This document shows, piece by piece, positions 5,201-59,945 of a stretch of DNA of 64,000 nucleotides. Position numbers and translations under genes: made by a program. The number at the start of each line of letters is the position of its first letter. The stretch's first letter is position 1. Below the pieces are notes generated by a model. That model ran no database searches, was not told where the DNA came from, and saw only the letters and a list, made by a program, of their open reading frames with translations. This DNA is from Tubulanus polymorphus (taxonomy: Eukaryota > Nemertea > Palaeonemertea > Tubulaniformes > Tubulanidae): the NCBI RefSeq assembly GCF_964204645.1, contig NC_134025.1, forward strand, positions 27,992,001 through 28,056,000, given 5' to 3'.

Positions 5201-8200
5201 TGCCAAAATATCGTCAAACCCCAAACCAGATGTAAAATGGCTGAAAGATGGAAAAGAGTTGATGGCGACTGATCATTATAAATTTGTAAATGAGGGCGAC
5301 GAATATTCATTGATCATTTCATCAGCAGAAGAGAAAGATAGTGCCACCTATACACTACAGGCTAAGAATAAACTAGGAAATATAGATATTAAAACACAAG
5401 TGGAAATTAAAGGTGACTAATGGGCGTTTTAAAAGTTAAGAAAGCGTCATCTTTACGTTTAGCAATCTGAATGTTTACCTCTGCATGTTTGTATATCCTA
5501 TAAAAATCCTATAGCTCGTGATTAGAATTTTCTGTAAAGATGTTGCAATAATAACACACTCAGAACCCAAGCTTAATCTATTATCTCCAAGCTTAATTTA
5601 TCTTAATTTATCGATGTCGTTGTCACCATAACCTCTATTCTTGTAAAATTTTTATTCTCTAGTTTATTCTCTGCTTCCAACCCTGTTCGTTAATTTTGCT
5701 TTCTATGTATACGTGTTGTTATAGACAAAGCCGCCAAAGACAAATCCACAAAACAAGAGCCTCCTAAATTCAAAACCAAACTTGAAAATATAATCTCAAT
5801 CGAAGGAGAACCGCTGTCATTAGAAGTCAAAGTCACCGCTAATCCAGAACCAGCTATTACCTGGTTTGTTGACGGTCATAAATTAAAGCCTTCCGATGAT
5901 ATTTCTATGTCATATGATGGCGAAACGGCGATATTTATGATCAATGAAGCGTTTCCTGAAGACACGGGACTTTATACCTGCCGAGCCTTGAATGCTTTTG
6001 GTAAGGGTATAGAAAAATTATGCGACACTAGAGACATTCAACCATATCAAATTAAGATTTTATATTTAATTTCAAGAAAATGGTAATCGCTTAACGGTTG
6101 CATGGGTTTTTCTATAATAGGGGAAGTCGAAACAGACGCTGAAGTTATAGTCGAAGAAAGACCCCGAGCTGGAGCTACAACTGCTCCAAAATTATGGATA
6201 CCGCTCGAGGATCTAAAAATCAAAGAAAAGAAAGTTGCTTGTTTTGAATGCAGTGTAACTAGTTCAACACCACCAGAAATAGTATGGCTTCACAATGATA
6301 AACCCGTGGAAGTAAGTATCAGCCGATTTACTAATAATCATCAACTAAACAGTTTTTAATCGACATAATCGTTTCAGCCATCTGATCGAATTGAGATGTA
6401 CGAAGATGGAGACTTCATTGGTATCAATATCTTGTGCACATCGGAAAAAGATTCGGGAAAATACACCTGTATCGTTCGGAATAAACAAGGAGAGGTTTCT
6501 TCGTCCGCGGAACTTATCGTTGAAAGTGTCAAGTAAGTAAGAAGTTTAATGTTTCCCATATAAGGGGAAATATTTGAATAATTTGAAGTTTACGGTATTG
6601 TGTGAATCACAGGAAGGAAATCGTGGGTTATGCCCCGCTTATGACGTGGCGGCTGAAAGACCAAGAGGCGGTCACAAAGGAAACTGTAAGATTTGACTGT
6701 AGGTGCACATCCGATCCGGAACCGGAAATCAAGTGGTAAGTACTAATGGAATGGGTATGTCGTTATATTTTTAACCTTTGTGAACTAAAAGAACGATATA
6801 TTCTCAAGGTTTTCGGGGGTAATCATTGATGAGTATATCAATGATTCGCGACAGCACATAGAACAGATCTCGACTGCTCATCCCCAGCACATAATTGATA
6901 CAAATGAGTTTAATATTGAATGTTTTGTTATCCTCTGATAAAGGTTTAAAGACGGAGAAGAGTTGAAAGTGGATGAAAAGTATGCTGTTGAACAGAAAGA
7001 AGGAAATTTTGCATTAATCATTCACGATCTAATTTCTGAAGACGAGGGAGTTTATAAATGCACAGTTACGAATGCGCTTGGCACAGTGTCTAGTTCAGCC
7101 ACTCTGATCATTGATGGTGAGTTGTCGTGTAAACACAATAAATACAACCTTTTTGAATGATACTTAACCATTCCTTGTCTCACAAAATAGAAAGGGGTTT
7201 ATTCGATAAAAGTCACAGTCCAGCCGTTGGCGTAGACCTTTACGTTACATATCTTAAACATTTCATTTAGAGTTATACTAGTATGTAACAATGATTATTT
7301 AGTTGAACTGGGTATCAACAACGAGAGGCTTTGGATTATTGGCACCTAGTAATACGCACGTTTGATGTTTGTGATAAAACACGAGGCTCTGACATTGAAT
7401 TAGCCCCGTGCCCCCTATTCACTGACTACCTGTCGATTGAAAACAGATGAGTGTGTATTTTTACTGTTGATGTAATTGATGAGATACATGAACTTCTCAA
7501 TCAGGTTGTATATTTATAACTACTTTACATCAGCCACGTAACGTCAGTATGTCTGTCGAACTTTCTTCTACAGAAGCGCCAATAAACAATAGTAAATCTC
7601 CAGAACCAGAAACTACTATTTTGCCACGACGGGAAAGTGTATCGCCTGAGAGTAGGAAGGTACTCAAAGCTCAAGCTAAAGAAAAAGAAAAACAAAAACA
7701 AAAGGCAAAACTCAAGAAGGTGAGATAACATTTCATGTCAGACTTTCGTGATACCAAAGTTTTGAAGCGAACAAAAAATGTTGATTATCCCTACTAGGAA
7801 AAATCTAGTGAATTGAAATCGGTTGATCCCACGATGACAAGTAAAGGTAAGCAGGATCAAAAGCCTGAAACGGAGGAAGCATATGAGGAAGACCTTGACG
7901 AGGCTGACACAGGTGTTCCACGTAAGTACTTTTTAATGTATTCTTGTGATTCTATCTAGCAATTGAGCACGTTTTCTTTAAAATCTACCTTTATCCTTTA
8001 TATTAGTTGCACCTCGTGCAATAAATGATGCCCCGATTGTACACGACATGGCAGAGGATTCTCTTACTCTATCGTGGCCGGAAAGTGTGATGCCATCATA
8101 CGCTAAACAGGTGCCGATTCTGTATGACGTAGAGGTCCGCGAACTACCTGGCAAAGATTGGAAACCGATCGTCAGAAATCTGGACGACACGGTGTATCAC

Positions 8201-11200
8201 ATTACAGGAATGAAACCCGATCGAGAATACATGTATAGAGTACGGGCCGTAAACGATCTGGGAATTAGTGATCCAAGTTTGTCAACAACTGTACACAAAC
8301 GAGCTGGTAGGTATAGTGGATGATTGTAGCCGATTTAATATCCTTTTGCGATAAAACTCATTTTTAAAACACCACAGGACCCCCGGAATTACCTTCCGCT
8401 AAACCAACCTTCAAAGTATTGGCACCAGAAGAAATTGAATTATCCTGGAAAAAAGCAACAGTAGCAAAAGGGCATTTGGATACTGACATAGCTTATAACG
8501 TAGAGATCAGGTATATACGATAAAACTATAGAATACTATAGAATTCATACTTGTCATTTTACAAAGGTTTATTTACAAAAGTTTGAATTTATCATATATT
8601 TTCAAAGGGAACCACCATCCAAAGAGTGGAAAATTCTGGCTTCAAATATCTCTGATAATCGACTAAAAACGTATATGCATCCAGGCCGAGATTACCAGGT
8701 GAAGGTAACGGCCCTCAATCAATGGGGGATGAGTGAACCAACTATGGCTGTCATGGTCCCTCGTAGAGATGGTGTGTATATTTGTCTTTTCGTTGAATAC
8801 GGAGAGATGAATATTCTATGATATCGTATGATTTTTCAGATAAATTCATGCCTGAAATGCCTCGAACAAAACCACACTACGAAATGAAAGACGCTTCGAC
8901 GTTGGTACTTAATTGGGAAGCTGCCAGACTTCCACCTGGGGGACCACCGGGTGTAAAAGTATCGTACATTATTGAAGGCAGTGAATTTCCAAGTTATGAC
9001 TTTAAAACTATTGCGACTGATCTCTTGGATACTGAATATACCCTGAATGATTTGAAACAAGATAAAGATTATATGTTCAGAGTGTTGGCTACAACAAAAT
9101 ATGCTATAAGCGATCCTTCGCCGTCAGTATCAGTTCACAGAACGGCCGGTAAGTTATCAATAACCACATTCATAAAGTAATAAACTTTCTGTGTGGCACT
9201 GTAAATTTCGTCCGCCATTACTGATTGCACCATACTTTTACAATTTGCGACGCATAAACAGCAATTCAAATCGCTAGCTTGCATGGCCCATGTCTACTGT
9301 TCAGCATTCACTTCATTTATTCAAATTTATCTATTTAATCAATTTGGGCGCTGCGAAACAAGAACATGTATTAATGTCTAAATGAACGCTTGCGCTTATA
9401 TGTGTTTGCACACAATTCATTTTACAGCTAAAAATGCACCAATTCCACCTAAAGAAATTCCTACAATGTCCGCGGTAGGAGCAGATGCTATCTATCTAAG
9501 TTGGCACCCTGCATATTTACCGCCTGGTGTCGATACCGGTATCACATATAACGTATACCAACGTGAATTACCCAGTGAAGAGTGGCACAAAATAGCCAAC
9601 GAGCTTCCAGATACAGCTTGCACAGTGCGAGGATTACATCCAGACACTGATTACATGTTTCGTATTTATGGTGTCAATGAATATGGTATCAGTGACCCAT
9701 ATCCACCTTTCGCGTTATACCAGAAGTCCGGTTATGATGATGGTAAGATGATACCATAGATAGCCGTAGATAAGTAGCTAGGATAGAACGTAGCTAGTTT
9801 TTCTCAGTTATATTCGTTCATACTTTTGCGTTTCCTAACCCGATGCCCACCATTTCCAAACTCCGGCATATTGCGCGCGTACCTCAAATCCATGCACCTC
9901 ATTCTTTGCAATGGCAACGTTTCCGCACTGCATGTCCAGACTGCAAAGCGCAAAAGTATGAACCAAAATATAGTCCGCGTACTTTGGGTTATCAAAAATA
10001 CATCTTTACATACAGCACGTTAACTCGTACAAATGAACACGTATCAGATGTATGAATCAGTGTTAGTGGTACATTTTATTTGTCAATAGTCATTTCTTGA
10101 AACATTGATGAAATCTTGTTCTTTTCCGATTTAGTTGCACGCAAACAACCGGAAAATATTGTCGTTAAGCCTAAGGTAGAAGAATTAGACGGTGACAGTA
10201 TACGTTTATCTTGGCCGGCATCGAAACCTCCTGGTGGGGCTAAAGCACCGGTCTGGTATACTGTAGAGGAAAGTGAACCTAACACAAATGAATGGAGAAA
10301 ACTTGCAGAGAAACTAGATGTTACAACTTATGTAGTAAAGGAACTTACTAATGATCGGGATTACTCGTTCAGAATAAGAGCTGAGAATGACTATGGTACA
10401 AGTGATCCATCTCCATCGGTCAATGTATTTAGAACTGGAGGTATACATTTTAATTCATTTACCAAAAGCACACGCTTATTGTCGTCACATAGTAGTAGTG
10501 GTTGTCATTATTTTCGTTGTAGCACCTAGAATATTACCGGTGGCTGTACAAGAGAAGCCTTCCGTATCAGCAGTTAATCCAACGACGCTAAAATTATCCT
10601 GGTGGGCCCCGTACTGTCGTACTGTCGAAGCTGAACCACAGTCATATGCGATTGAGATAAACAACTCCGGTTCAAAAAATGGCCCTTGGGATGTTATTGC
10701 TTCTGGTATCAATGACACAAAGTTCACCCTCAACGAGCTTGATCCGAAAGTGGAATATATGTTCCGGATTGTTTCTGAGAATGATACTGGCGTCAGTAAA
10801 CCATCACCTGAAACCAAGTTCAAACAGAATCTAGGTTTGTTGAAGTTTTTACATTTGTACCAATGACTTCAACAACAGTTTATTGTCTAAGTACATGTAG
10901 CATCTTTATATCATGTATGGTATTTCAGATACATTCTTACCGGGCGCAGTTCGGGAAAAGCCCAAAGTTACAGATGTCGATCCTACTACTGTCAAACTAT
11001 TATGGATGGCACCGTATACATCATCAAGAGCACCACCACCTACGTCATATCGTCTTGAAATCTCTGATTCACCAGATTCTGGATGGGATGCACTGGTTGA
11101 TCACATCAGAGAAACGTCATTTACATTGGACGATCTCCTCCCAGACACTCCTTATTACTTACGAATCGTGTCTCAGAATGAATACGGTTCCAGTGATCCT

Positions 11201-14200
11201 TCTCCTGCTGCTAAAGTTTACAAGAAATCTTGTCAGTATTCATTTTCAAGTTGTGTATGCAAAAAATATTCGTCAAGTACATTTGTCAGATATTCTCATA
11301 TTGTCATTGCAGCATCTTTCTTGCCTGAAGGCATTCTTGAGAAACCAAGAATAACGGAAATAAGTCCAACCTCTGCTCGGGTTGTTTGGTTACCCCCGCG
11401 TATGTCCCCCAGTGCACCAACATACACCTACGCCGTTGAATGCAGGGAGGGTCGAAAAGGTGAATGGAGACGTATTGAGGGTGGTTTGGAGGAACATGTG
11501 ACGTCATTTACAGCAGTAGATCTGCGACCAGAAAGTGACTACGCGTTCAGAATTATTGTAGAGAATAGTTATGGTTCTGGAGAACCATCACCCCTAGCTA
11601 TTCGTTCAGCTTCCTTGGGTAAAATATACTCCGAATATGTAACACCATTGGCCAACGTTATAGAATTATGATATTTTTCATGATGCGGATTTTTTTTATA
11701 GATTTGGTACCCAGTGGAATTAAAGGTAAACTTTCGATGAAGGATGTCGGTCCAGGGTCAGTGCAACTTCATTGGGATAAACCTAGAGTTCCTCCAATTG
11801 GAAGATACACATACTTGATCGAGTATCGAGATCCACATACCAACGAATGGAAAAAACTGATCGGTGATTTATCAGATCAGACATATGTTATAGATAATCT
11901 TCGTCCTGAATTGGATTATATGTATAGAATAGTTGTACAGAATGAATATGGCAATAGTAACCCTTCAGCTACTGTTACTAGATTTGGTGAACGCGGTTAG
12001 TAGATAATGAGAGTTTCTAAGCGCCTTCCTTATCAACCAATGCTATTTACGTATACATTAGATTCATTTGTTATCCTAGATGCATTGTTACCTTTGATGC
12101 CCAAGGATAAACCGATGATAATGGAGCTGGGGCCGTCTGCAGTCGAATTGTCGTGGAAAGAAGCTAAATCTAAGACATCGACAGACGAAGCCATCACATA
12201 CATACTCGAGATGAAGGAAGGTTCTAGTGGGCAATGGAAGGAATACAAAACCGATCTCACTGAAACACACTTAAGAATTGCTAATCTTGGTTACGATAAA
12301 GATTACATGTTCCGAGTTCGAGCAAAGAATGAGCACGGAGTTAGTGATCCGACTCATTCTATTACCGCTCACAGATCGAAGTGTAAGTTAATATTTTCTG
12401 TGTTAACGAATAGGAAATTAAGCGCATGTTTCGTTATTTGTAATAAATGCATTCACAGGTCGCCTGGTTTTAAATGAAATCATCATCAGTCAACAAATAA
12501 ACTACACATTGGGTAGAATCTCCAAAACGATATCTGAAATTATCTATCAATGATCATCAATTATTTATCAACTCGCCAATCATAAAATCAAAATCAAGTA
12601 AAATCTTCTTTTCAAGTGATCTTATATTTGTAATTCATCCATGATTTGCCTCTCTCTCTTTCCGTTTAGCTGCCTTTTTCCCCAATCAAATCCATGACAA
12701 ACCACAGCTATCTGTTCTTTCTCGCGATTCGGCGGTTCTTTCCTGGTCCGTACCCTCCCAACCCTCACACCTCAGAGATCTACCATTCATGTACGTGATC
12801 GAGGCTCGGGAACATCCCAGTCGAGATTGGAAAGAAATAGCTCAGGATATTGAAGATCCGACATTTGATCTCAACAAGCTGTCTCGTGATAAAGAATATT
12901 CATTCCGTGTTCTGGTAGAGAATGAATATGGATTAAGTGAACCTTCACCGAGTGTCACATTATCGAGGAAAGAAGGTATGGATGAAGTCAACTCAAATAT
13001 TAGTGGTTTCAGATACTGATCTCTTCGAGTAACCAAAATGATTTTATGAATTCTGTTTATCTTCGTTTTCAAGCCGACTACGTACCGCGAACACCGACAG
13101 ATAAACCTCGGCTTTCTGATGTAAAGGCTGAAACGCTCAGACTTAGCTGGGATGAAGTGGAACCGCCGCCGATGGCTACAGATTCTCCTGTGACGTATAT
13201 AATCGAAACACGAGATTCTAAATATAACTGGACGACATACGTAGACGGTAATATTCCTGAGATTTTCGCCCGGGTTCCCAGTGAAGATCTTGCTCACTCA
13301 AGTTTTTATTTTCTAGATATAAAAACTACGTCTCATGAAGTGAAGGCAGCGCCAGATATCGAACATGCCTTCCGTATTAGAGCAAAAAATATATTCGGGA
13401 GAAGTGATCCATCACGACAAGTAACCGTTCCGAAACGACAGGGTACGTGCGTGCCATAACCTTCAATATTAGACCTTCCTTTATGGTTACGATTTTCCGC
13501 TATGAATTTGATATCATTTCTTTTTACAGTATTCCCCGATCCAATTTCCGATAAACCATTTTTGATGGAACTAACGCCGGATACAGTGAAATTGTCGTGG
13601 AGAAGTCCCCGCGCTGCCTTCATGTCCGAGCTACCATCATCTGCATACTCCTACATATTAGAGTATCGCCAACCACCCAGTGATAAATGGAAAAAATTGA
13701 TCGGTGGATTAAAGGAAACTTCATTTACGATAAGAGATCTTGAAAAGGATAAAGAGTACATGTTCAGAGTTCGAACACAGAATGATTTCGGCACTAGTGA
13801 ACCTTCAGCCCCAGTATTGAGAGCAAAACTTCCGGGTAAAAATCCTAAAATGTTCTTATATTCAGAATTTACCTGATTATATGTAATTATCAAAAAGTTA
13901 TCTGTTGTTTTACTTTGCTAAGATCACGCAGCTATTCGAAGAAGCAGAAGTAGAAGTCGTGAACCATCTCCATGGCGCCTCCCATCGGATGTCAGCACAG
14001 GTAAGATAGAATCACTAGTATTTAAGAAATAGACGTTGATAATGAAAAGGAAAATATTCACTGCGTTTCGTCTTTCAGATGTGGCTCCTGAATTCACAAA
14101 TGTTGAGCAAAATGTTGTCTACGGTGTTCAAGGACAACCCGTCAAATTAAATGCCAGTTTGAAGGCCTATCCTGAACCTAAAATCATGTGGTTCCACAAT

Positions 14201-17200
14201 GAAGATAAAATAGATTTAGGTATGAGAATACACTAATAACTCTTACTTGATTATTTTTGACAAAAATATGTCTAAGATATAACCATAAATTCTAGGTGGA
14301 CGTTGTAATTCGTATAAGTCAGCTAATGGTCAGTACAGTTTAGAGATCGAAAAGATGACGTCATCTGACGTTGGAGCTTATCGGATATATGCAGAGAATT
14401 CTCAGGGTATTGCAGAACATACATTTAAACTCGAATTAGCTGGTAAGTTTAGTTCGTTCAAATCGAGATGTTGTAGCTGATGTATCATAGAAAATGCCTA
14501 ATTCTTGATATTTTTAACAGATCCACCGATTTTCTTGGAGCCTATGAAAAATACCGATCTCCGTGTTTGGACCTACGGTAAACTGGATTGCCGGATTGAC
14601 GGATTGCCGTACCCGGAGGTGAAATTCTTCAAGGACTGGCACCCATTGACTCAAACAGCTAGGGTCAAGGCCAATAGAACGGATTATGATTATTGGTCGT
14701 TAAATTTTGATAATACGATTTTACTGGATGAAGGGATGTATATTTGTGTTGCTGAGAATATAGCCGGTAAAGCGTATTGTGTAGCAAATCTAGTTATCGA
14801 AGGTAAAATACCAGTTACTTTTCATACCGGGGTATCTTAAGCTAAATTGCTTGTCTCGTCACAAGGCTAGTGTATTCTAATTCTATTTCGCAGAGAAACC
14901 ACCACTTATCGATGTAAAGTTCAAACCGACGCATATTTCTGATTTCTACTACGTTTTAGATGAAATTGAAAGGTTCGTAATTCTTTTTATTTATAAGCAT
15001 TTACAAGCTTGCCAATACTAAAAACCTGTAATTTCTTGTTAGATTTCTTTTTATTAACGTCTTTTCGAATCGTTATTCGTATATAGGGGTTCTCACGGTG
15101 TAATTAGGCGTGTTGTTGAGAAGAGCACCGGAGTCGAGTTTGCGGCTAAGTTTTTACGAGCTCGTGACGAGAATCAGAAAAACGAACTGAAACAGGAAGG
15201 AGACGTGATGTCTTTACTGTCACACCGTCACGTGGTCAGACTTACCGACGCGTACGAGATGAAAAAGAACATCGTTTTAGTCATGGAGTTGTATCCTTTT
15301 CATCGTATCAACCCGCAATAGTTGATAGAAAACATTAATTCCGAAATTTTTTTATATCAATTTTGAAAATGTGCACTGAATAATGACGCGTTATGGCATT
15401 ATGTAGGGCTGTTGGTGATTCATTTACCTTGACCAAATGTGCAGATTGACCGGCGAAGAATTACTAGACTGCATTATTGATAAAGACAGGCTGACCGAGA
15501 GCGAAGTGGCTTACTATATACGCCAGGTTTTAGAGGCGCTACAACATTTACATTCTAAAGGAGTAGTTCATCTAGATGTTAAGGTAAATCGCGATAATTG
15601 GCCTTTTTAATCGTTCAGTTATTCAGCGTTATTACCCATATTATTATCACCATCGTATTCAATCTTTAGCCTGAGAATCTACGTTTGTCGACACCCGGAG
15701 CTGATGACAACATCAAACTGATTGATTTCGGATTTTCTCGTCGTATTTACAAAAATAAGGAAACGTTTGTCGATCTTGGAACACCGGAATTTGTTTCTCC
15801 GGAGATTCTTCGCCAGGAACCAGTAACGCACGTAGCTGATACCTGGAGTGTAGGTGTACTCACATATATACTGTAAGTTACATTCAAAAATTTATTGCAT
15901 CCGATGACGTGTATGCACTTTGGTTAGATATATCCTAGTTGTTTTTGCCCTCAGGTTAAGTGGTATTTCACCGTTTTTGGCGAGCAGTGACCGTGAAACC
16001 CTACTCCGAATTAAAGACGGTCAATGGTCATTCGATGAAACTGCTTTCGAAAATATTACAGACGAAGCGAAAGATTTTATCGATAAATTATTAGTCTCGA
16101 AACCGAAGTAAGTGATACACCTTTTCATTTGAACATTCATATAAAGATGATTTTCTTACTTCAATGACAGCTTCTTCGATTCCAACTTTCTAGATCTCGT
16201 ATGACAGTAAAGCAGTGTTTTGAACACCCGTGGTTACAAGTATCCAAACAAAGAGGACAAGGAATAAAGATAAATACTGAACGACACAAAGTCTTCAGCA
16301 GTCGTAGGAAGTTCGAGGTAATGTAAAAAAAGGGTTTGAGAATAATATCAATATGAATCTAAATCGGGATGATGACTTTTACTTTTTATTCTTCCATTAC
16401 AGTGCTCACAACATCAAGTGAACACAATCGTTTTCCATCGTAAAATGTCGCTTCTAATGGTGGAACTTCCAAAATTACAAATACCTTCTATCGAGGTTTT
16501 CGATGAACCAGAAGATAGAAGACCGCAATTGATAAACAATGTGAATGCTTCATTCAACGGTCTTATGCCGGGTAGTCCCACTGGTATAATTCTAAGTCCA
16601 GGAACATCCCGGGCAAGTTCAGTTGAGCCTTCTGAATTCGGGGATTCCGAATCCACAGATCCAGGCTTCGATGACGAATGTCTAATGGAAGATTGGATAC
16701 ACCAATATGGTCCAATACCTCATAAACAAAAACATAAGCTTGACGACCTCAAATTTGATGACTTTTTCGGAAAACAGCTCGGGGTTGAAAAACCGATAAA
16801 TCCACCCACGTCTCCTGGTAAAAAGAGAATGAGAAAGATTAGTTTCAACAACGAACCACCACCTATCGGCGATACTGGTAAGCGTGCTGAATGGAAGAAG
16901 CATGTTCATGCTGATTACTGCTACAAAATGACTGTCTTTGAAAGAAATCAACTAGCAGCTGAGAATGAAAATGCTTTGTCAATGTTGTTATTTTTGCATG
17001 AGAATGGTACGAGCCTTCTAGAAGGTCCTCCCACTGCGAAAAAATCCCCGCCAGTTCCAAGGCGTTTTTCAGATTACGATTGTTCATTTGATCTCGATCA
17101 AAATTCGAACATCTGCCCCAAACGGAAACTACAGCCTACATTAAGTTCTATCACTAAATTACTACTGATGCATAAAACGAAACAAGTTGTTCATTTAATG

Positions 17201-20094
17201 GAGAAATGTCAGTCTCAATCCCCTGAGAAACGTAAAATTTCGATCGATTGTTCCCATTCAGAATCAAAAAGGTCTCCGGATTTAAGCCATTCTTCCTCAT
17301 GGTTGACCGTTGTAAAAGCAGCTATGCTTTTTCGTCGTAAGAGCTTACACTCTGGGGCTTTTGAGCGATTATTCGATACCCCTCGGCATTTACCACCACT
17401 TTCTAAGCCCGAAAGATACTGCAGGGAAACGTTTGCTCTGCTCGGGGGTCTCATTGTTGGTATAGTACTGGCTTTACTTTACCGTGCAGCCCAGTACATT
17501 CTCTTTAGCTAATTCCCGTGCCTGGTGCCACTGAGAATATGCATGCGAATTTATATTTTTCTAAGAAAATCTGATGAATATTCAAATAAAGATTGCATGT
17601 TGCTTGATTTTGTTTTTAGTTATTGCATGTTATCAGGATATCAAACTGTTTTCATTCTAATCTTAACGTAAGTTTTTTCCACGACTTTTTTCGAATTACT
17701 CTTTGAGCCGAATCCACACGTTATTGAAGTATCTATCGACAGTCATTTTCAAAATTACAGTTGAGGCACCCGTATTCAAAGAAACTATCAAAGACAAAGC
17801 CTACGATGTCGGTGAAAATGTGACGTTGCACTGTCAAGTTATCGGAAAACCAGCCCCGACTGTTTACTGGTATCGTAATGATGAACCATTATGGGACGGT
17901 GAACGCATCCGAATACAACATTCCAAAGATACCGGGCATACATCATTAACAATACTGAACACACTTCCTCATGATTATGGCATCTATAAATGCGTGGCTA
18001 GTTGTGCTGGAACGAGAGCTGTAACAAAAGGCAGACTGTTCCTCGGGGGTAATCAAATATCTTTTTCGGAAAATGAACAAGAAAATTGGTTAATACTCGT
18101 CGGCTTCATCTCCATGAATCAATTTGTTTTTTGTTTTAGATGTTCCTGGTCGCCCCGGTAGACCTGTAGTGCAACAAGTTTCGTCAAGCCAGGCTTTGAT
18201 TATTTGGGAGGAGCCAGATCATGACGGCAACGGTCACATATTGAACTATCGGGTCGATTACCGAATCAATGTTGGTAAGACCATCCGAGTTGTCTTTAAC
18301 TTTAGAACTAAGCAATTACAAATTCTAAGGCTTTGGGCCTCATTTGGATCGTCTGATTTTTCAGGTCAGGATAAATGGTCGATCGCCACGTACACGATTG
18401 ACGAATGCGCACTCGTCAGTGGTCTACGTCCAAATACAGTTTACAGGTTCAGAGTCTGTGGCCGTAACAGATTCGGTGTCAGTCCATACAGCTGGGCCTC
18501 GATTGAGGTTCGAACTAAATCTAAAGGTAATGTTAATCTTGCAATCTTGTTTATGATTTCACAATAAAAATGAATAGTGATGCTTTTTTATCGTACTCTT
18601 TATTATCACGTACAGGCTCCTCCAAATTGAAGATGGACCGGGAAACGAAACGAATAATTCTACGATCACAGCGAGCGAAACTAGATGATTCGGATGGAGA
18701 TGACGAAGATGACGTGACTCCGACGGCGAGTAGAAGAGGGTCGACTGACAGCATTGAAAATAACGTACCGGCTACAGATGTCGCATTACAGGAAACCGAT
18801 CCCAAAAAGCATTACGATATTGAAGGACAAATTGAAGGGTTAGTTGATAATGAGATTGAATCCCCCAATGGGTCCCTTTCTGTGCATTTCCATTAGTTTT
18901 AAATCCTTTATCATTTTAGTGGACATTTCAACGTTGTTGTTAATTGTCGATCAAAAACGAAGAACAAAGAATATATTGCCAAAATTCTTGGTTATAACGT
19001 CGATACTAAAGATTCGATTCTGAGGGAGTATCACATCCTGAAAGCTCTGAATCATCATCGAGTCGTTCAACTTTTCGAAGCTTATATCACCGATAAACAG
19101 CTTGTTTTGATCTTCGAGAAACTGCAGGGTGAAGAGGTCACCCGCGCAATCTCGTTTAAGACGAGATATAACGAAGAAACTGTTTGTAGAATAATACGAC
19201 AAGTGGTAGCCGCACTGCAGTACCTCCACAGTTATGGAATAGTTCATTTGAATATTCAACCGGGAAATATAATGCTGTGCAGCAGGAGACGTCTGGATCT
19301 GAAAATCATCGATTTCACTTGTGCTCGTGCAATAACCGACGAAGAGGGAGAAACATTCGGAAAACTTGGAATGCCAGAATTTATGGGTAATTTCCAACAA
19401 CAAACCTAGAACAATCACCATTAAGTATCTCTACATTTAGATATAAATATATTTGATTTACTTCCAGCCCCAGAAATGATATCTAATAGACTAGTTGGTT
19501 GTGCCGCCGATATTTGGAATGTGGGCATTCTAACGTACATAATGTAAGCTGTCAGAGAGTTCATTACGTTTTCTATTGGAGGAATAAATTTTTAAATCTT
19601 TAAATCTATGTTTATTTGCCAGGTTAAGCGGAGAATCGCCATTGTTAGGAACTGACGATGAGTCTACGTTTGATAATATTACGCGACTGAGATATGATGC
19701 CGATCAATTGTACGGACATATAACCAAGGCGGCATTGAAATTCATGTATAACATCCTTAAAGTTAATCCAAGGTACGACGAATGATACCTCAATTTTCAT
19801 AATGGAATATAAAGTAGGCTATTCGCTAAAGATTTTGTTGATTTCATATTTTACAGCGAACGGTTATCGCTTGATGACTGTGTAGAATCAAGATGGCTGA
19901 GTCTCTCGGAAAATATGGTGAAAAGACGCCGGGCGAATAAATTCATTACGTCTAAACTCAGGCATTTCCAGGAGGTTTATACCGCTCGTCGCAGAGCGTT
20001 GGGCAAACCTTCGGAAGAGCTGCTTGGTTCATACGCCCATATCAAACGAGCCTCGTCAGTTGATTCGGACACAGAAACTGACTTCACTTTATAG
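1..20094 (+). CDS. unc-89: Obscurin/UNC-89-like giant muscle protein (5' partial, 58 exons)
   Basis: Giant sarcomeric signalling and scaffold protein of the titin-like kinase family; in animals it links M-bands to the sarcoplasmic reticulum and signals through a RhoGEF and two kinases. Spliced by eye from protein continuity, splice sites and phase; the coding exons sum to 12516 nt, an exact multiple of three, giving 4171 residues from the window edge to TAG at 20092-20094. Order: SH3 end (1-12), DH (about 31-229), PH (230-335), Ig1-11 (420-1508), charged linker, FN3 1-13 (1599-2917), Ig12-13, kinase 1 (3135-3434), linker, Ig14, FN3-14, kinase 2 (about 3850-4110). The N-terminal SH3-DH-PH matches invertebrate UNC-89 rather than vertebrate obscurin, where it lies near the C-terminus. 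The 5' part is outside the window. Nearly all domain exons are phase 1-1. Family call very confident; individual splice sites mostly confident. Confidence 0.95.
2338..7116 (+). other. unc-89: Ig domains 1-11 of obscurin, including a tandem run of near-identical Ig exons
   Basis: Exons 2338-2448, 2532-2771 (Ig1), 2874-3179 (Ig2), 3260-3553 (Ig3), 3624-3917 (Ig4), 4010-4303 (Ig5), 4383-4676 (Ig6), 4752-5045 (Ig7), 5122-5412 (Ig8), 5725-6000 (Ig9), 6121-6311 plus 6378-6532 (Ig10), 6613-6735 plus 6944-7116 (Ig11). Ig2-Ig8 each sit in one phase 1-1 exon; five are exactly 294 nt. They share KISSNPKPDVKW and KDSATYxLQAxNKLG, the I-set Trp and Tyr core positions, but the usual Cys pair is replaced (Ala in VTAKIS, Leu or Val in the YTLQA strand), so these units lack the intradomain disulphide, as is common in intracellular muscle Ig domains. 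Ig1, Ig10 and Ig11 keep one or both Cys. Such arrays act as spacers and binding sites along the filament. Confidence 0.92.
2874..5412 (+). repeat. Tandem exon-plus-intron duplication, seven Ig units of about 0.36 kb
   Basis: Seven consecutive units, each one Ig exon of 291-306 nt plus an intron of 70-92 nt. Similarity extends into introns: those after Ig2 (3180-3259) and Ig5 (4304-4382) both begin gtaacttaaggtcagaa and end tgaatttctaatacag; those after Ig3 (3554-3623) and Ig7 (5046-5121) share their first bases and a tagagtatg block. Exon starts agree: KELSKKQEAEAGS in Ig3 and Ig6, PPKNQKGEAGSEV in Ig4 and Ig8. So at least two overlapping duplications, one offset by three units and one by four, are visible. 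Confidence 0.9.
7574..7921 (+). other. unc-89: Charged Lys/Gln/Glu-rich linker exons of obscurin
   Basis: Two exons, 7574-7719 and 7798-7921, join the Ig array to the FN3 array. The first ends with a run of alternating Lys, Glu and Gln (KEKEKQKQKAKLKK) that could form a single helix or coiled coil; the second is acidic (EEAYEEDLDEADTG). No fold is recognised. Phases fit both neighbours (in phase 1, out phase 1). Confidence 0.8.
8007..13835 (+). other. unc-89: Array of 13 consecutive fibronectin type III domains in obscurin
   Basis: Exons: 8007-8306, 8378-8510 plus 8608-8771, 8840-9148, 9428-9742, 10135-10440, 10523-10834, 10929-11231, 11313-11618, 11702-11995, 12080-12382, 12670-12975, 13074-13247 plus 13317-13442, 13530-13835. 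Each has the FN3 signatures: a Leu-Ser-Trp strand, a Tyr-containing strand (YxIE), Glu-Trp-Lys, and YxFRVxAxNxYGxSDPSPS. Eleven domains are single phase 1-1 exons of about 294-315 nt; domains 2 and 12 are split by an intron near the middle. UNC-89/obscurin proteins that I know of carry only a few FN3 domains beside many Ig, so this block is unusually large; titin- and twitchin-like proteins are where long FN3 runs are normally seen. Confidence 0.92.
13923..14000 (+). other. unc-89: Short Arg/Ser-rich linker exon of obscurin
   Basis: A 78-nt phase 1-1 exon encoding a basic linker with alternating Arg and Ser (RRSRSRSREPSPWR), between FN3-13 and Ig12. The RS repeats and SP motif are plausible phosphorylation sites. 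Being symmetric, it could be skipped without changing frame. Confidence 0.75.
14079..16317 (+). other. unc-89: Ig12, Ig13 and kinase domain 1 (all catalytic motifs present)
   Basis: Ig12 14079-14219 plus 14296-14442; Ig13 14521-14802; kinase 14894-14972, 15087-15290, 15445-15583, 15670-15872, 15955-16107, 16194-16317. Kinase motifs in order: ERGSHGVIRRV glycine loop (two glycines of three), FAAKFL lysine, QEGDVMSLLSH (alpha-C Glu), HLDVKPEN catalytic loop with Asp at 15575-15577 and Lys at 15581-15583, DFGFSR with Asp at 15724-15726, TPEFVSPE activation-segment end, and FEHPWL at the C-lobe end. By motif it is an active Ser/Thr kinase of the titin/MLCK-like group. The donor after 15290 (GTATCC) is weak, but the protein reads continuously (VMELLTGEELLD). 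Confidence 0.92.
16403..16877 (+). other. unc-89: Inter-kinase linker exon of obscurin (spliced form)
   Basis: Follows kinase 1 and encodes about 158 residues of a Ser/Pro-rich, acidic, disordered linker with SPGTSR, SPTG and TSPGKKR sites. A strong donor (G|GTAAGC, 16877/16878) in phase 1 joins to the phase-1 Ig14 exon at 17761. The reading frame remains open across this donor for another 211 codons (see next entry). Confidence 0.85.
16403..17512 (+). CDS. unc-89: Alternative terminal exon of obscurin: 211-residue tail ending in a transmembrane helix
   Basis: If the donor at 16878 is not used, the frame continues to TAG at 17510-17512. The extra tail (16877-17509) is basic and Ser-rich, contains a class II SH3 ligand (SPPVPRR, about 17050), and ends with a hydrophobic stretch of about 20 residues, FALLGGLIVGIVLALLYRAA (about 17429-17488), followed by only six residues. 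AATAAA lies at 17585-17590, 73 bases past the stop. The layout is that of a composite terminal exon with intronic polyadenylation. The product would be a 3803-residue (in-window) protein with only kinase 1 and a tail-anchor-like C-terminus. Seen in sequence: open frame, hydrophobic segment, poly(A) signal. Inferred: that it is expressed and inserts in ER/SR membrane. A chance open frame of 211 codons in AT-rich intron is unlikely. Confidence 0.65.
   Translation, partial: CSQHQVNTIVFHRKMSLLMVELPKLQIPSIEVFDEPEDRRPQLINNVNASFNGLMPGSPTGIILSPGTSRASSVEPSEFGDSESTDPGFDDECLMEDWIHQYGPIPHKQKHKLDDLKFDDFFGKQLGVEKPINPPTSPGKKRMRKISFNNEPPPIGDTGKRAEWKKHVHADYCYKMTVFERNQLAAENENALSMLLFLHENGTSLLEGPPTAKKSPPVPRRFSDYDCSFDLDQNSNICPKRKLQPTLSSITKLLLMHKTKQVVHLMEKCQSQSPEKRKISIDCSHSESKRSPDLSHSSSWLTVVKAAMLFRRKSLHSGAFERLFDTPRHLPPLSKPERYCRETFALLGGLIVGIVLALLYRAAQYILFS
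17585..17590 (+). terminator. Poly(A) signal AATAAA for the short (kinase-1, membrane-tail) obscurin form
   Basis: Canonical AATAAA 73 bases after the alternative stop and within what is otherwise the intron 16878-17760. Its position supports a real 3' end here. Confidence 0.55.
17761..18526 (+). other. unc-89: Ig14 and FN3-14 between the two kinases of obscurin
   Basis: Ig14 in exon 17761-18048, with both Cys (LHCQVIG and YKCVAS) and the core Trp (VYWYRND). FN3-14 in exons 18140-18274 and 18365-18526, starting PGRPGRPVVQQV and ending YRFRVCGRNRFGVSPYS. An Ig-FN3 pair just before the last kinase is the standard arrangement in UNC-89 and obscurin. All junctions are phase 1. Confidence 0.92.
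18616..20094 (+). other. unc-89: Kinase domain 2 (predicted pseudokinase) and C-terminus of obscurin
   Basis: Exons 18616-18838 (acidic linker and start of the kinase), 18920-19386, 19468-19543, 19623-19772, 19857-20094. The kinase fold is clear: GHFNVVV, YIAKIL (Lys kept), LREYHIL (alpha-C Glu kept), YLHSYGIVHLNIQPGN, LKIIDFTCAR, GMPEFMAPEM. The HRD Asp is Asn (codon 19251-19253), the Lys two residues on is Gln (19257-19259), and DFG is DFT (19311-19319). Loss of the catalytic base predicts no phosphotransfer; nucleotide binding may remain. The tail is basic (VKRRRANKF) and then Ser/Thr/Asp-rich, ending DFTL. Confidence 0.9.
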
Positions 20095-20189
20095 AAAGGA
20101 TCGACCTCCGGTTTTAAGCGCGCTCGTTGTTTTTATCTCGTTTGTTATGATATGAAATTATTAAGTTCAAACTGAACATGCAAAAATTA

Positions 20190-20416: not shown

Positions 20417-20609
20417 CGGGCGAATAAATTCATTACGAATTATTATTTTCAAAACTCAGACATTTCCAGGAAGTTTATACCGCTCGTCGCAGAGCGTTGG
20501 GCAAACCTTCGGAAGAACTGCTTGGATCATACGCCCATATCAAACGAGCCTCGTCAGTTGATTCGGACACAGAAACTGACTTCACTTTATAGAAAGGATC
20601 GACCTCCGG
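20417..20609 (+). repeat. Near-identical copy of the obscurin last-exon segment (possible alternative terminal exon)
   Basis: 20417-20609 repeats 19930-20111, including the stop codon and the first bases of 3' UTR, with one replaced or inserted stretch near 20437-20450. In the shared coding part the only substitutions I find are four, all at third codon positions and synonymous (Arg, Glu, Glu, Gly). The copy has an in-frame acceptor (CTCAG|A, exon start 20460) whose phase matches the end of exon 57 at 19772, and stops at 20590-20592. It would give a C-terminus lacking about 36 residues. No AATAAA is seen soon after it. Alternatives: an unexpressed recent tandem duplication. Confidence 0.8.
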
Positions 20610-22729
20610 TAATATCGCATTTCGTCTGAAATTCGGAACGAACACCCGAGACACGATTATTCTAAATGAGTGAATTTCTCTTGTCAAATCAGATATGATT
20701 TTCTTAAGTAATAATTGCTGGGGGTCTTATAGGCTAATCAAATATATCTTACGTAATGCCTGGTGCAATGGGACGTTACTTAGAAATTCTACATCTCAAA
20801 TACTGTTTTTAGGACACGAGCAAAAGACGGCTTTACGTTAACAAAAACGAATCAGTCGATAATGAATTAGATGATTATCTGATATTTTGCTAGAAATAAC
20901 TGAATCAATCAATCGATAATAACTTGTTTGTTGACCGCTATAGTAATCATCGCACTTTACAATAGTAATACATGAAACCACAAAATTATTTGAAATACCA
21001 TTGCAATACAAGAACATAAAACTGTAAGAGACATTATTCAATGGCAAAAGCTTCAAGCTTTCCTAAAAAATTGTTTTGAGCGGGTTGGCGTTTAAAAGCG
21101 TCGACGGATTCCCGAATACGGTAAAACATTCCATCCAGTGATCGTTATATTCGCCGGCCTCTTCAGGAACCTACCAAATGCGTTCATCATTTGACTCGAA
21201 ATTTACGTTCAATCAAGTTGGTTGATATTTTTTTGGTACTTAAGCGATTATTTACATACATCAGTGAATTGATAGCGCTTTTCGAAAAATGGGCCCGGTT
21301 AGACAGCTTAAAGTAACTTCAAGATGATGCGGTAGTATCCAGGATGAAAAAGAGGTCCCCCATAAATGTTGCCATAGTTCTACTTCATGAATACCGTAAT
21401 TCGCCACCTGTGACTGAATAATGATGAAATAAGGGAATATTTTTTATTAACGGTCCCAAACACGTCGGGGATTCCCTTAAGCACTTGCATACCTCTGGGA
21501 TCCTACGGAAGCCCCTCCTTTCTAAAGGTTTGATTATTCTAAAGTTAGGTTGGGTATATCGGGCGAAAACCACTTCAATACGTAGCTAAGATGCTGATCT
21601 AACACCCAAAGCAGGGTTTCCCGCCGATTTTCCGCGGTCATATATGAACTAAACGCTCGAATTTCTTGTTTTTACTATGGGATGTAGAAGATTTTGGAAC
21701 GGTTGTCTGAAGTCGTTTACGTAGATGTTAGATGTATAGTAACGCTATTGCGGTTAAGTATTCTTAACCAGCCGCTGAACGAGAAATAATCTATAGTTCC
21801 TTTGAATATCCCCAGGAAAATGTATCACACTCATTGAGAGCTGTTTGCTATAAAAAAAACATATTTACGCTTATATGTGCTAATACGTATCATAGGAATT
21901 ATGTACGTTTTGGCTCGACAGTAATTAATGCATTTTTATGGAGATAATTAAAAGGAAAACATGCATTCCAGAGTTACTAACATAAAGGTTACCAGTTGGG
22001 TTGGGAAAATTACTGCAGATTCAGACAAAATTAAAAATAAGATGCAAGCACTAAACAATCATGTATAAATAAACTTCGATGTTTACCAAGAAATTCTAGC
22101 TGGTTTGTACATCAATGAATGGATAAGCTTTTTATAGTCTGGTACTAGTATCATATGTAGAAGGTTATATATGTATATGTATATATAATTATTCCGATGG
22201 TTGAATATGTTGGGTAGAGGGTAGCGGTACGCGTGCGTGTTTTGCAGCATGTGTACCGTCTGTAGTACTCGGTACTGATCATCCGTCTGCGCACAACAGT
22301 AAACCGTCGGTTTCCATATAACGATCGAACGCAAGCCATCGATTTTATCAATTGATTTCTAGGGAGCTATCGAGTAGGAGAATACGACGGAATCAGCGAC
22401 AATTTCGCTTTATAGAACGTTCTGAGGAAACCTTCGTTAGTCTTCGTCTTGATACAGGCGTATGATATATGTTACACGCGAATCTGGATTACTTGGAAAA
22501 ACCACCTCACGAAATATTCGTCCTAGAATCTTGTGTCGTGTTCGAATATCACAAACGTGTTATTACTGCATGGCGCTGAATAGTACTCTATCTAATTTGG
22601 GATTCAGTGTTCAGATGATGCGACCAAGCTGGCGCGTCGCCTATTTCGAGATCGTTAGCGCTGTAGTTACCATAGAAACTTGAAGACGATTGTCAGTCGA
22701 CTGGTCGAATCAGTTGGATAATTTGCGAA
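20610..22729. other. Intergenic region between obscurin and the SLC10 gene
   Basis: No gene supported on either strand; open frames are short and lack splice or protein features. A (TA/GTATA)n microsatellite lies near 22169-22188. The last few hundred bases presumably contain the SLC10 promoter and 5' UTR, but no clear core-promoter element is seen. Confidence 0.6.
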
Positions 22730-24603
22730 ATGCGTGTCGTGCCAACAAGTATCATGAGAATGTTATACTGTCTTTTTACATTATTGTGCATTTCGCGGTT
22801 TTCTATGTGCATTGAGTCGTCGGAAAATGCAACATCTTACAGCGATGGTCGGTTATCCCTGAAGGTGGAGCCACCGGAATTGAACAATCTATCCATGTGG
22901 AACGGTATCGCTGTAATAACTATCAATTATCAATTGAACAGCGAAAATCCCTGGAAGTTGAAGACTATCCCAGAAGATGATGAATTGGTAACCATTGCTG
23001 GTAGCGGACAATTTCTGCTCAATGGAACGAATGACCTCTCTGGGACAAAATTCAGTGGATCCATTAATTTGACTCTAAGCGGGCATTTCATAGGATTTAC
23101 GAATCTCAAGTTCTACATTAGTAACGATTCAAAAGTATTATCTGATAGCAACAGTACTTGGTACAGTTTACCGGTGGAATATTTAGTTACAGTAATTCGT
23201 CCGGATAGAGTCGTCGACATCATATTCAGAGTTACCATATCAATATTGGTGGTTATCAGTATGATACTAATGGGAACCAAAGTCGACCTTGATGTGGTGA
23301 AAGAAGTACTCAAACGACCTTATTCCCCTGCAATTGGATTCTTTTGTCAAGTTCTTATAATGCCTTCCGTACGTATATACACATGTCCATTCTTTTATAT
23401 TCATCCAATAGACTCTAATGGGGGATTCGGTTTAGGGTCCATGAATCATCAAAATGCAAACGGTTTCAGTTTATTCCTCATTTCCGCCTACTTAAATTCA
23501 TTGATCAATGAATTTAAGTATGATCATGATCATTATATATTGAAAAACGTGTTCATTATTTCTCATGTAAATTTTATTATAATTGTGACATATAATATTG
23601 TAGTTGGCATATGGCATATCAAGGATGTTGCGGCTGAATCCTAGCCAGGCGCTGGGTATATTTGCAACAGGCTGTGCTCCCGGTGGTGGGCTCAGCAACA
23701 CGTATACATACCTGTTGGATGGTGACTTATCGCTCAGTATTACTATGACAGTTATATCAACGATAGCTTCACTAGGCAAGTAATTACCACTGTGAATGCA
23801 TTTAGCACTGTGAGAATTAATTACCTGTCATTATTTTTCCTGCTTATCTGATCGTGTGCGTTGGATTTTTTTCAAACGACAGAATCAATCGACGGGTTGT
23901 GTGGAAGCCTTGATCCGAATTTCTTTTTCGTTTTTTTCCAGGTACTATACCCCTTTGGATGTTCACTGTAGGGCGGCTTATTATTGAAGATATTCCTAAT
24001 AAACAAATGAAGATTCCATATAAGAATATATTCATAACTTTAGTTATGATAGTAATACCCGTTGGTATCGGATTATTGTTACAGAAGAAAGCTCCCAAGT
24101 GGACAAAGATGTTGAGTAAATGTATGCGGCCTTTCCTCATAGTCCTCATACTATTCATTGCTTCATTTGGCATCTGGGTCAATGTTCACATGTTTAAGCT
24201 GTTTACCCCAAAGGTCGTAGGTGCGGGTATGTTACTTCCTTGGACGGGTTTCGCGCTGGGGGCCTTAATACCTTTTATATTCCGCCGTCCCATTACACGT
24301 GTCTTTACCATTGCTATAGAGATCGGCATCCAGAATACTGGCGTGCCCATATTACTATTATTACTATCCCTAGAGGCTCCTCTCGGTGATTTAGCTATCA
24401 TCGGTCCAGTAGCTGTTGCTTCTTTCACTCCGTTCCCGTTACTAATCGCCATAGCTTTCGTTGAAATTCGTAAAAGATGGTGCAATCGTGGCGAGCGCCA
24501 GCTGGCTGTCGATGACGATAAAGGCGAATACATGAACGGAGATGCGACCAGAGAAGATGCAGATTTTGTGAACATTCAACTAACGAATGGAGTAACGGAT
24601 TAG
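22730..24603 (+). CDS. SLC10-family sodium/bile-acid symporter-like transporter (P3-protein-like), three exons
   Basis: Multi-pass plasma-membrane or organelle transporter of the SLC10 family, which couples sodium to uptake of bile acids, steroid sulphates or other organic anions. Exons 22730-23368, 23604-23775, 23942-24603; 490 residues. A signal peptide-like start (LYCLFTLLCI) is followed by an ectodomain of about 140 residues with six N-X-S/T sites, then the transporter core from about residue 163. Family motifs: GTKVDL after TM1, GCAPGGGLSN, SITMTVISTIASLG, and EIGIQNTGVP (Glu and Gln of the sodium site). The long N-terminal domain is like SLC10A3/P3 or SLC10A5 rather than ASBT/NTCP. Intron 2 uses a GC donor (G|GCAAGT). 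The start at 22730 could instead be 22754. Substrate not predictable. Confidence 0.9.
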
Positions 24604-55954: not shown

Positions 55955-58900
55955 TCAGATTTTCATGAGGTACATAGCTATTTCCATAGGATCCAAGTGT
56001 AAAACTTGATCAACGGCTAGAACTCTTTTTTCATACATCAATGAAATGGTCATCTCATTAATTTCGGATATTTTGATGTCGGTGAATAACGTTTTTAAAT
56101 CGACCCGGCCTAAACTGGTTTTACAATTCATGTTACCCAGAGGATAGTTACATTCGTAGCCGATTCTATTCAGGAGAAATACAATGCCGTTAATACCCGT
56201 TCCGTAATTCCTTAACGTTTTCAAGTGAAGAAGGTTAATATCGCAAGGTAATGCTACTTTTAAAGGCGAGAAACTCGCGCGGAATGAACGAGCCGTCATC
56301 ATTTGTATGAAATTCACAATCGGATGTTGAAGCGCGTTTTGAAGACTATGCGCCAACAGCGAAGGATGTGAAATGGTTGGCATTCGATTTTGGGGAGCTC
56401 GCGATTCGTGTCGTTCTAACAGTAAAATGAATTTACTCAGAGTTAACTGATTATCATAGACGCCCTCGCCGAGACCTCGATTGTCGTCGTACATCAACTT
56501 GCGGTCTAACATCACTTCCATCCAACCTTTCTCAAGGCTAGCGACTCCGTGTGATTGTCCGGCCAGAATACTGAGCCTAGTAGAAACATCTTCGATATAC
56601 ATCATAGATGTCATCGGATAGTAATTACCCCGACTATGTAAATGCTTTAAATACTTTCGCTTCATCATTTGAAAGCCGTTCATATCCGTATAGAATATTT
56701 GTTCGTTATCGATATTTGTGGTCAATCTCATTATGATTTCTTTGTCGTTTATCGAAACTTTTCGATTTTCGTTACCGATATCGATGAAGTTACGTATTTC
56801 GAGGGCTTCGCTTTGAAGAATGGGCGAATGAATTATTCGAACGACGTGCTTCAAAGCGGGATATACGACGTGTATTTCCGTTCGGACGTTTCCGCTGATT
56901 ACGCGAATTTCAGGCGTTCTATAAAAATCCAAATTCTCGGCAGGTCCCATCGGGTAAAATAGATACGCGCCACTGCCCTGGGAAATATAGGTGAGGAATT
57001 GTATTTTAACTAGCGTCAAAAGACCGTCGCGTTTAGTTGTAATAGACTGCAATAAACCCGTTTTCGGAGAAAATGATGCGAGGATAAAATTGTTTTCTAA
57101 AACCAATTCATCGTTAGGATTGATTTTATGCAGTGTAAATGCGCCCAAATTCCGATATTTGGCCTTTTTTTTATTCGTAAGTATCGAGGAAATCTTGGCT
57201 AGATTACCGACTGGTGGCTCATTTTCAAAACACCGAATGGTATAACGACTAAAACCTAACGCTTCAATTTCAACTTGAAATATCAATTCATACTCGGTTT
57301 CGGATACGGGTAAAATTTCCGATTCTACCCAAATGGGGCTGATTTGACTTTTCACCGGTTTCGAAAATGAATCAACGACTAAAATATTCAGATTTCTACT
57401 AACTATTTGCAAACGAACGATTTCCTGACGTTTCTTAGCGACAGAATTGAAAAAGAATACATTCGTTCCGAGAGAAGTGATGAATACTGATTTTTGTCCA
57501 GGAAAAGGATCGTCGACGCCTCTCGCGTCATCGATATCTAAAAACAGTCCGGAGCTTTCGATTTTTCTGGTGCCTTCCTCTTCTTGTTGTTCGCCGTTCG
57601 ACAGCAGGAAACTCGCCGAAGTTATCTTCACAGCATTCGATAACCCTTTAGCTTCCCACAGTTTTAACAGGTAATCGTCGATCGTCTCCGGTTTCGAAGT
57701 TCCGGTGATCGCGTCGTGATGCTGAAACAACGCTAAATTCTCCCTACACGAGGTTAATCGTTGCGCGTTGTGAATCTCTGACGTGAAGATCTTTTCGTGG
57801 ACGCTCGAATACGCGACGGCTAACGAATTCAATATCTCCGCATCGCGAACATTCGATTCTAATTCGCGCGCTAGCTGTTTATAAAACGGCCGCGTAGTAA
57901 AGTAACCAGTCCAATAATCGGCCTCTCGATCCGTGTACGGAAAAAAATCTCCGCTGAGAATCGGAATTTTAGATTTTTCGAGCAATTGATTCGATTCGAT
58001 TCGTTCGTGTAAAACGTTGAAATAATCGGTTAACGTGCCGAAATGAACCTCAATATTCAGCGATGGTCGAGCGTTGATGTACTGCATTAATTTCATGAAG
58101 TTCGTATATTGTTGAGACCATTCTTCCGGTCGGTCGTAGCGGAAATCGTCGCCTAACGGCATAAATATCACGTTCGCCTTGTAATTTTCGGCTTTACGGC
58201 GGAATTGGTCGACTAAACGATTCGAGTAAAGTTTCACATTTTCCGGCGTTATCGTCGTAGCCATGCTTTCCGTGTATTCGCCGTTGACCTTACGAAAATC
58301 GAACATCAGACAAATAAACGGAGTCGGACCGCACGAATACTTCACGCTGTATAACATGTAAGGCATCATATGACACAATGTCTGCGAATCGCCTTTACTG
58401 TCCCAAATTTGACGCCATTGGAATTCTAGATTCTGTCGTTCTCTCAACATATCTTTCACGTCTTCGTGCACGCGTAGAACGACCATGTTACGAACACCGG
58501 CGCGGTTTAATAAATAGGGTACAGTCGCCGAATAACCGAATGGATCGGGCGACCAATTGACTTTCGGTCGAACGCCGAGGTTTTTCATCACCCACTGATG
58601 TCCTTCGATCATTACGTCGATAAACGAAGTGAACGTGGTCGACGCTTCGTCGGGCGCCACCCAACCACCGTTTACTATTTCCAGACGACCTTCTTTGATC
58701 AACGATTTAAACCGAGATTTCGTTTTCTCGTCGATGTCGTTCCACCACATCGCCAGAAACACCGTTTCGCCCCAGATAAACGTCATATTCTTATAAATAT
58801 GCATCTGTTGAACGAGGTTATCGAGAATCGGTTTCGTTTGTTCCTGGTAGTAATCGTCGATCGTACGAATCCAGCCGGGGTCCGTATGAGAATGAGGTAT

Positions 58901-59251: not shown

Positions 59252-59945
59252 AGTTTTATCTGAAGCTAGCCAGTATCCAAACTATCCAGTTGATCACAGT
59301 ATATAGAACACATTAATTGTTCGGTACTCAGAGCACAGTTCGACTTCATCATTCCATGGATCACAGATCACTCGGTTGGAAGAATGACCAATCCTGTCAA
59401 ATGAAAGAAAGATACCATACCGGTATTATCATTAAGTAAACTTTCGCTGTTATCTGTTAAACATGATGAATGTGATTTTACTCTGAACAAATGCCGGAGG
59501 ATACAAACCGTTCAGAAAGCAAACATCGGAGCAACTGCATTTAATGGTGGTAGTGTCTCTATAACCCACACAAAAATTTCTGGCACATGTTCTGAACCTC
59601 AATCTATGTGAGACTCGTAGTATCCAAAAACATGTTAGAAAATTGCTAGGTAAAAGCATTGATGTCTAGTCTGAATACCAGATAATCTGGGGGACAACGA
59701 GACTTGATTGAGGTCGTAAAAAATACTCCCTATAATTGCTTTTTGTTTGTTTTTGTTGCCAGCATCCATGTTAACACTGCTGGCTGGTTGCCAAAAACCC
59801 AACGTATTAATAGGCAGTCCTTATGACAGTGACATACATTTTGAATGACTAATATTGATGAACCAAACATCCAACATTCATTATTGGTTTCTAAATGAAT
59901 CCAGATTATTTGTGGTGTATTTGGTACTTACAGGGAATAATTTAC

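Follow-up and report, generated by a model that had tools for sequence, protein, structure and literature searches.

Can an obscurin gene, by failing to splice out one of its own introns, make a protein that carries its own membrane anchor? This question is raised by the interkinase region of a gene found in a window of 64,000 nucleotides, the whole stretch of DNA analysed here, from a genome of 268 Mb in 77 contigs. The gene lies on the + strand, runs in from the left edge of the window and stops near 20.1 kb. We show below that a long open reading frame continues past a strong splice donor in this region, and that it ends in a hydrophobic segment followed by a polyadenylation signal. The explanation that we favour, with a probability of roughly 0.6, is a composite terminal exon that would yield a one-kinase, tail-anchored obscurin.

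Judged by its domain architecture, the host gene is a homologue of obscurin/UNC-89. Profile matches give the exon-encoded order as RhoGEF-PH, an Ig block, tandem fn3, Ig, PK1, linker, Ig, Fn3 and PK2, and the arrangement by which members of this family are recognised, two MLCK-like kinase domains with a linker and an Ig-Fn3 pair in between, is present. The RhoGEF match at 161-400 scores 28.6 bits against a cut-off of 27.6, a second RhoGEF piece (1163-1462) falls under the cut-off with 17.9 bits, and the PH-type match at 1505-2215 reaches 60.4 bits. Ig domains are also present upstream of the window, as is a weak SH3-like ORF (L008, 5201-5401; 14.3 bits, with a cut-off of 22.8). The I-set profile is above cut-off in all four of the Ig ORFs given for the tandem block, and in two close to the kinases. 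Between the Ig block and PK1 lies a tandem fn3 array (7982-13873) with eleven matches in ten ORFs, one ORF hosting two. Two further ORFs, at 13004-13456 and 8504-8818, have no match above cut-off. The fn3 profile is also above cut-off in 18118-18564, giving at least 12 matches in the gene, compared with two Fn3 domains in UNC-89 (PMC3388081). The wider organisation is shared with C. elegans UNC-89 and Drosophila obscurin, which likewise have RhoGEF-PH, Ig, Fn3, PK1, linker, Ig-Fn3 and PK2 and come in multiple isoforms.

The two kinases differ in their catalytic residues. PK1 aligns to the twitchin kinase (5.6e-67) and keeps the catalytic-loop HLDVKPEN, the DFG and the AAK lysine; by eye, the first glycine of its nucleotide loop is replaced. 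PK2 aligns to DAPK2 (3e-44), its catalytic loop reads HLNIQPGN, so the HRD aspartate is gone, and its DFG has become DFT. The segment RRKFECSQHQVNTI, which follows PK1 and straddles the boundary between the exon that ends at 16317 and the linker exon, resembles calmodulin-binding sequences in its MLCK-type spacing. In the fly and worm obscurins PK1 is described as a pseudokinase and PK2 as the probable active enzyme, whereas both kinases of mammalian obscurin are active in vitro (PMC10129394). As far as catalytic residues can tell, the state of PK1 and PK2 here is the opposite of that in fly and worm, and the short form proposed below would hold the only kinase of the gene with a complete catalytic loop. 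Such a swap hints that activity may be retained by either member of the tandem.

Table 1. Frame, hydrophobic end, poly(A) signal, splice sites, domain order and catalytic residues as read from the window
Feature	Position	Strand	Basis
PK1 kinase domain, five exons	15087..16317	+	HLDVKPEN, DFG
PK1 exons	15087-15290, 15445-15583, 15670-15872, 15955-16107, 16194-16317	+	first two borders by eye
Interkinase-linker exon, common to both forms	16403..16877	+	sequence
Read-through tail, 211 codons and TAA, in frame with the shared exon	16877..17512	+	translation
Alternative phase-1 intron (883 bp), spliced out to give the two-kinase form	16878..17760	+	splice sites
KKSPPVPRR within the tail, a proline-rich motif resembling SH3 ligands	17039..17065	+	pattern match only
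WLTVVKAAMLFRRKS, amphipathic basic helix whose 1-5-10 spacing is calmodulin-like	17300..17344	+	pattern match only; helix low-confidence
Predicted C-terminal membrane anchor FALLGGLIVGIVLALLY, then RAAQYILFS and stop	17432..17482	+	hydrophobicity, model
AATAAA poly(A) signal, 73 bases past the stop	17585..17590	+	sequence
T/G-rich stretch behind the signal (20-60 nt, counted from its first base)	17605..17644	+	sequence
Ig-domain exon that follows in the two-kinase form	17761..18048	+	profile match, splice sites
Kinase-like domain PK2, with which the long form ends	18920..20094	+	HLNIQPGN, DFT

The original prediction had read a strong phase-1 donor at 16878, followed by an open read-through of 211 codons, and both are borne out. 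By consensus weights the donor (CTG/GTAAGC at 16877/16878, phase 1) scores highest of the ten that we checked, and among the 344 GTs from 14 to 20.1 kb it comes third. If it is passed over, the frame runs from GGT (from 16877) to AGC (17507-17509) and stops with the TAA at 17510-17512. No frame on the + strand of the window is longer than the enclosing one, which spans 378 codons from stop to stop. Reading through the nine other donors gives 1, 1, 2, 7, 8, 13, 19, 37 and 97 codons, and in a background region (25001-50000) the longest open stretch is 115 codons on the forward and 119 on the reverse strand. Second-order shuffles with the composition of the tail remain open for at least 211 codons in 2 of 20,000 cases (a fraction of 0.0001), and shuffles with the composition of the intron in none of 20,000. 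The openness of the tail exceeds chance.

Does this frame look like a coding sequence? The in-frame codon score of the tail is the highest of the six frames, and is matched by 0.14% of 5,000 background stretches. Per codon it amounts to -0.07, compared with 0.07 for the shared linker and 0.17-0.43 for ten domain-exon chunks that were also the training set for the score (4 of 29 stretches gave no frame in training and were left out). Codon periodicity over the whole tail is reached by 1.2% of the background and 2.5% of shuffles, and is absent from the second, anchor-bearing half (0.74). The synonymous codon bias of the tail carries no coding signal, with 23% of the background equally high; this measure is uninformative for the gene, the shared linker included. 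There is no match to the tail in Pfam, there are two chance-level matches in the PDB (E 1.2 and 1.7), and in the own genome, as DNA and as protein and wherever the assembly does not read N, the tail finds itself only and no second copy. Besides the two motifs in Table 1, the tail has three R[RK]xS sites by pattern match and five in-frame ATGs. We judge the feature to be real, and the tail to be coding, very probably.

At the end of the tail a hydrophobic helix of about 20 residues had been predicted, six residues from the stop. We find 17-20 residues, with nine or six left depending on how the helix is counted: the core (residues 186-202) leaves nine residues to the stop, a 20-residue helix leaves six. 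The hydrophobic peak covers tail residues 186-204, with a Kyte-Doolittle (KD) value of 2.18 over 19 residues, and the GRAVY of the core is 2.4-2.6. Crudely estimated with mid-membrane values, dG is -1.0 over the best 19 residues and -1.4 over the 17-residue core. The scan covered the tail, where by the same estimate the best 19 residues before residue 170 come to +5.1. AlphaFold2, run without an alignment, gives the tail a mean pLDDT of 44 and has low confidence outside the C-terminal helix, which is predicted at 178-210 and has 23 residues with a pLDDT of at least 90. C-terminal segments equally hydrophobic are found at 10 of the 853 reading-frame ends in the window, counting that of the tail itself (all six frames, frames of less than 35 residues dropped). 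When the residues of the tail are shuffled, such a hydrophobic C-terminus is reached in 9 of 20,000 trials.

Tail anchors are marked by one hydrophobic segment lying no more than about 30-40 residues from the C-terminus, and this is what the tail has. The net charge after the core is +1, from a single Arg in residues 203-211. In tail anchors, high hydrophobicity combined with a low tail charge favours the ER (Costello et al. 2017, PMC5450235). The mean tail charge is given as 0.21 for the ER and 1.12 for mitochondria, for a rule derived from mammalian proteins with yeast compared (PMC5450235). By this rule the hydrophobic core and the low tail charge make the ER or sarcoplasmic reticulum (SR) the first guess, and the most likely membrane address, with mitochondria the second. 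Two other endings, KASH-type (PPPx) and KKxx, were considered and are absent from the tail.

The AATAAA foreseen 73 bases after the stop is where it was said to be. This hexamer has a density of 1.23 per kb on the + strand, therefore the signal alone is weak evidence. The T+G content of the stretch behind it, however, ranks first among the 79 AATAAA sites on the same strand of the window. The intron that hosts both is about ten times longer than the nine other introns checked (81-91 bp, from 15.58 to 19.47 kb), and the next intron upstream (15291-15444) is 154 bp by eye. Of the ten acceptors compared, that of the long intron, at 17761, is the least pyrimidine-rich (9 of 16, vs 10-14 in the others), and it is outscored by acceptor-like sites in or just behind the tail, at 17262, 17490, 17495, 17509 and 17620. 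The best donor within the tail scores 1.75, compared with 5.77 for the donor at 16878. A strong donor, a long intron and a modest acceptor would leave room for competition between splicing and cleavage. The sequence marks of a composite terminal exon are all found here, i.e. a donor that could be passed over, an in-frame extension, and a poly(A) signal with a T/G-rich element. A candidate 48-nt exon (17620-17667), between the acceptor-like site at 17620 and a donor at 17668, would by eye add an in-frame stop, and we take it as chance. The stretch bracketed by these two sites may alternatively be part of the T/G-rich element.

Other explanations deserve consideration. The tail could be non-functional, for instance a chance-open intron or a disused former exon, in which the hydrophobic end and the AATAAA would both be fortuitous. 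This would fit a codon score under that of the exons of the gene, a synonymous bias that says nothing, a second half without periodicity and a tail that has no match in Pfam and none but itself in the own genome. It would also fit the AATAAA density (1.23 per kb) and the 6.9% of frame ends that have a C-terminal segment with a KD of at least 1.6. That said, just 2 of 20,000 shuffles are this open and the background maximum is 119 codons, an anchor of this strength is seen in 10 of 853 frame ends, the T/G rank is 1 of 79, and the length of the intron is an outlier. On balance we consider a non-functional tail unlikely. Could the tail instead be coding, but without extending the giant protein? 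With an internal promoter, or a nested transcript in the linker or tail (starting, for example, at Met18, 16928), the product would then be a small protein, tail-anchored and lacking most or all of the kinase. The unc-89 gene of C. elegans is reported to have three promoters (PMC12812942), and any of five ATGs within the tail is in frame. However, the frame of the shared exon carries on past the donor with no interruption, a continuity that a nested gene would show by chance about once in three, and we give the nested transcript low odds.

It is also conceivable that the short form is the main product of the gene, in which case the PK2 part would belong to a separate or rare transcript and the 883-bp ‘intron’ would be the usual last exon in most tissues. 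The anatomy of a terminal exon is complete, and the acceptor at 17761 is the poorest in pyrimidines of the ten, as this reading would have it. Set against this, none of the ten donors scores above that at 16878, the phases match, and the reading frame is kept through the joined Ig, Fn3 and PK2 exons, all of which makes a dominant short form improbable.

We therefore return to the composite terminal exon, for which the transcript, the membrane insertion, the address and the function, as we infer them, would be as follows. The obscurin gene would have two competing 3′ ends. With splicing at 16878 the 883-bp intron would be removed, and the product would continue from PK1 through the linker, Ig and Fn3 to PK2. 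If this donor is ignored and cleavage takes place behind the AATAAA at 17585, near 17600, the exon would gain 211 codons, and the short protein would stop after PK1 and the linker with the hydrophobic helix at its end. This C-terminus would be inserted post-translationally as a tail anchor, leaving the remaining domains in the cytosol. With the Ig/Fn3 rod on the contractile apparatus and the anchor on the membrane, the SR would be tethered, and the kinase-competent PK1 would be displayed at its surface. A wider proposal, which we hold only tentatively and would place somewhat below even odds, is that obscurin, in an invertebrate, would be a membrane protein in its own right. A single giant chain would reach from the contractile apparatus to its own anchor in the SR membrane, in place of the obscurin-ankyrin bridge that vertebrates have, and would bring the gene's only catalytically intact kinase, PK1 (possibly under calmodulin control), to the calcium store. 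With its other 3′ end the gene would encode a soluble form with PK1 and the pseudokinase PK2.

How does the proposed form compare with known relatives? Vertebrate obscurin-A is not known to have a membrane segment of its own. An alternative, non-modular C-terminus of this protein binds small ankyrin-1 (sAnk1) of the SR (PMC12812942). Obscurin-A is similar to the form proposed here in that both are alternative C-terminal ends of an obscurin gene, without PK2 and devoted to the SR (here by hypothesis); it differs in that it lacks both kinases and binds an SR protein, sAnk1, whereas here PK1 is kept and the predicted anchor lies in the chain (PMC12812942). Single-kinase obscurins, with SK1 only, have been described in mammals (Borisov 2008, as cited in PMC12812942). 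Like the form proposed here these have PK1 and are missing PK2, but a membrane anchor is not among the features described for them in the accessible parts of that source (PMC12812942). Since SK1-only obscurins are already known in mammals, only the anchor would be new. The original prediction of a one-kinase, membrane-anchored obscurin is borne out in part: the family, donor, coding-like tail, predicted anchor, poly(A) signal with its T/G-rich element and outlying intron are all to be found in the sequence.

The anchor also has a precedent of a kind. DMPK belongs to a different kinase family from the obscurin kinases and is not known to have an Ig/Fn3 rod. Its forms A-D are variants of a muscle Ser/Thr kinase with alternative C-termini that are tail anchors for the ER or the mitochondrial outer membrane (PMC2778554). 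The likeness is a muscle Ser/Thr kinase with a C-terminal tail anchor, and the difference is that the DMPK tails are reported to come from alternative splicing (PMC2778554), where intron read-through is proposed here. One-kinase obscurins and tail-anchored muscle kinases are each known, and their combination was not found in the literature searched. In that search, which covered titles and starts of abstracts of the papers listed, we found neither a tail-anchored obscurin nor an obscurin form made by intronic polyadenylation. Likewise, an anchored form of UNC-89 or fly obscurin did not appear in the literature searched, and the word ‘transmembrane’ has zero occurrences in the accessible text of the obscurin/UNC-89 papers queried.

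Work on the nematode bears on the proposal from both sides. UNC-89 and fly obscurin are reported to have no ankyrin-binding region (PMC12812942), yet the SR is disordered in unc-89 mutants and UNC-89 is needed for SR organisation (PMC3388081), which we count in favour of an anchored form. On the other hand, RNAi of the kinase forms of UNC-89 in C. elegans left SERCA placement normal, and the large Ig-rich forms were the ones required; direct binding of UNC-89 to SERCA or RyR was judged unlikely by the authors (PMC3388081). That the kinase forms are dispensable for SERCA placement argues against a general role of a kinase-bearing anchored form in nematodes. If the proposal is true, a self-anchored form would answer, for at least one lineage, how an obscurin can serve SR order without the ankyrin-binding region. 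It would also be a direct link between obscurin and the SR in this lineage, and a novel way for muscle filaments to be held on an internal membrane store. Two different SR links would then have arisen at the same kind of place, the alternative 3′ end of an obscurin gene.

Some observations concern the surroundings of the gene. A 162-nt direct repeat, 97% identical, occupies 19951-20112 and 20449-20610, a copy of the last part of the PK2 coding region lying just beyond the end of the gene. Open frames for a polytopic membrane protein, SLC10-like by eye, adjoin the obscurin gene on the + strand at 22676-24603. The longest open frame of the window, of 1108 codons, is on the − strand at 55957-59281, and a comparison of the whole window with Rfam gave nothing at the gathering threshold. 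Against the PDB, a 91-residue myosin exon from elsewhere in the genome scores 144 and 139 bits with squid and scallop entries, up to 131 with vertebrate entries and about 110 with fly entries, and by this one exon the animal is probably a lophotrochozoan. COX1 gave no match, nor did mollusc haemocyanin, for which the controls were silent too. The genome also has a muscle-type myosin gene (G000 C4:4117275-4130387). It has four separate matches to one part of the head (profile positions 112-121 to 152), which is the pattern of genes with alternative exons.
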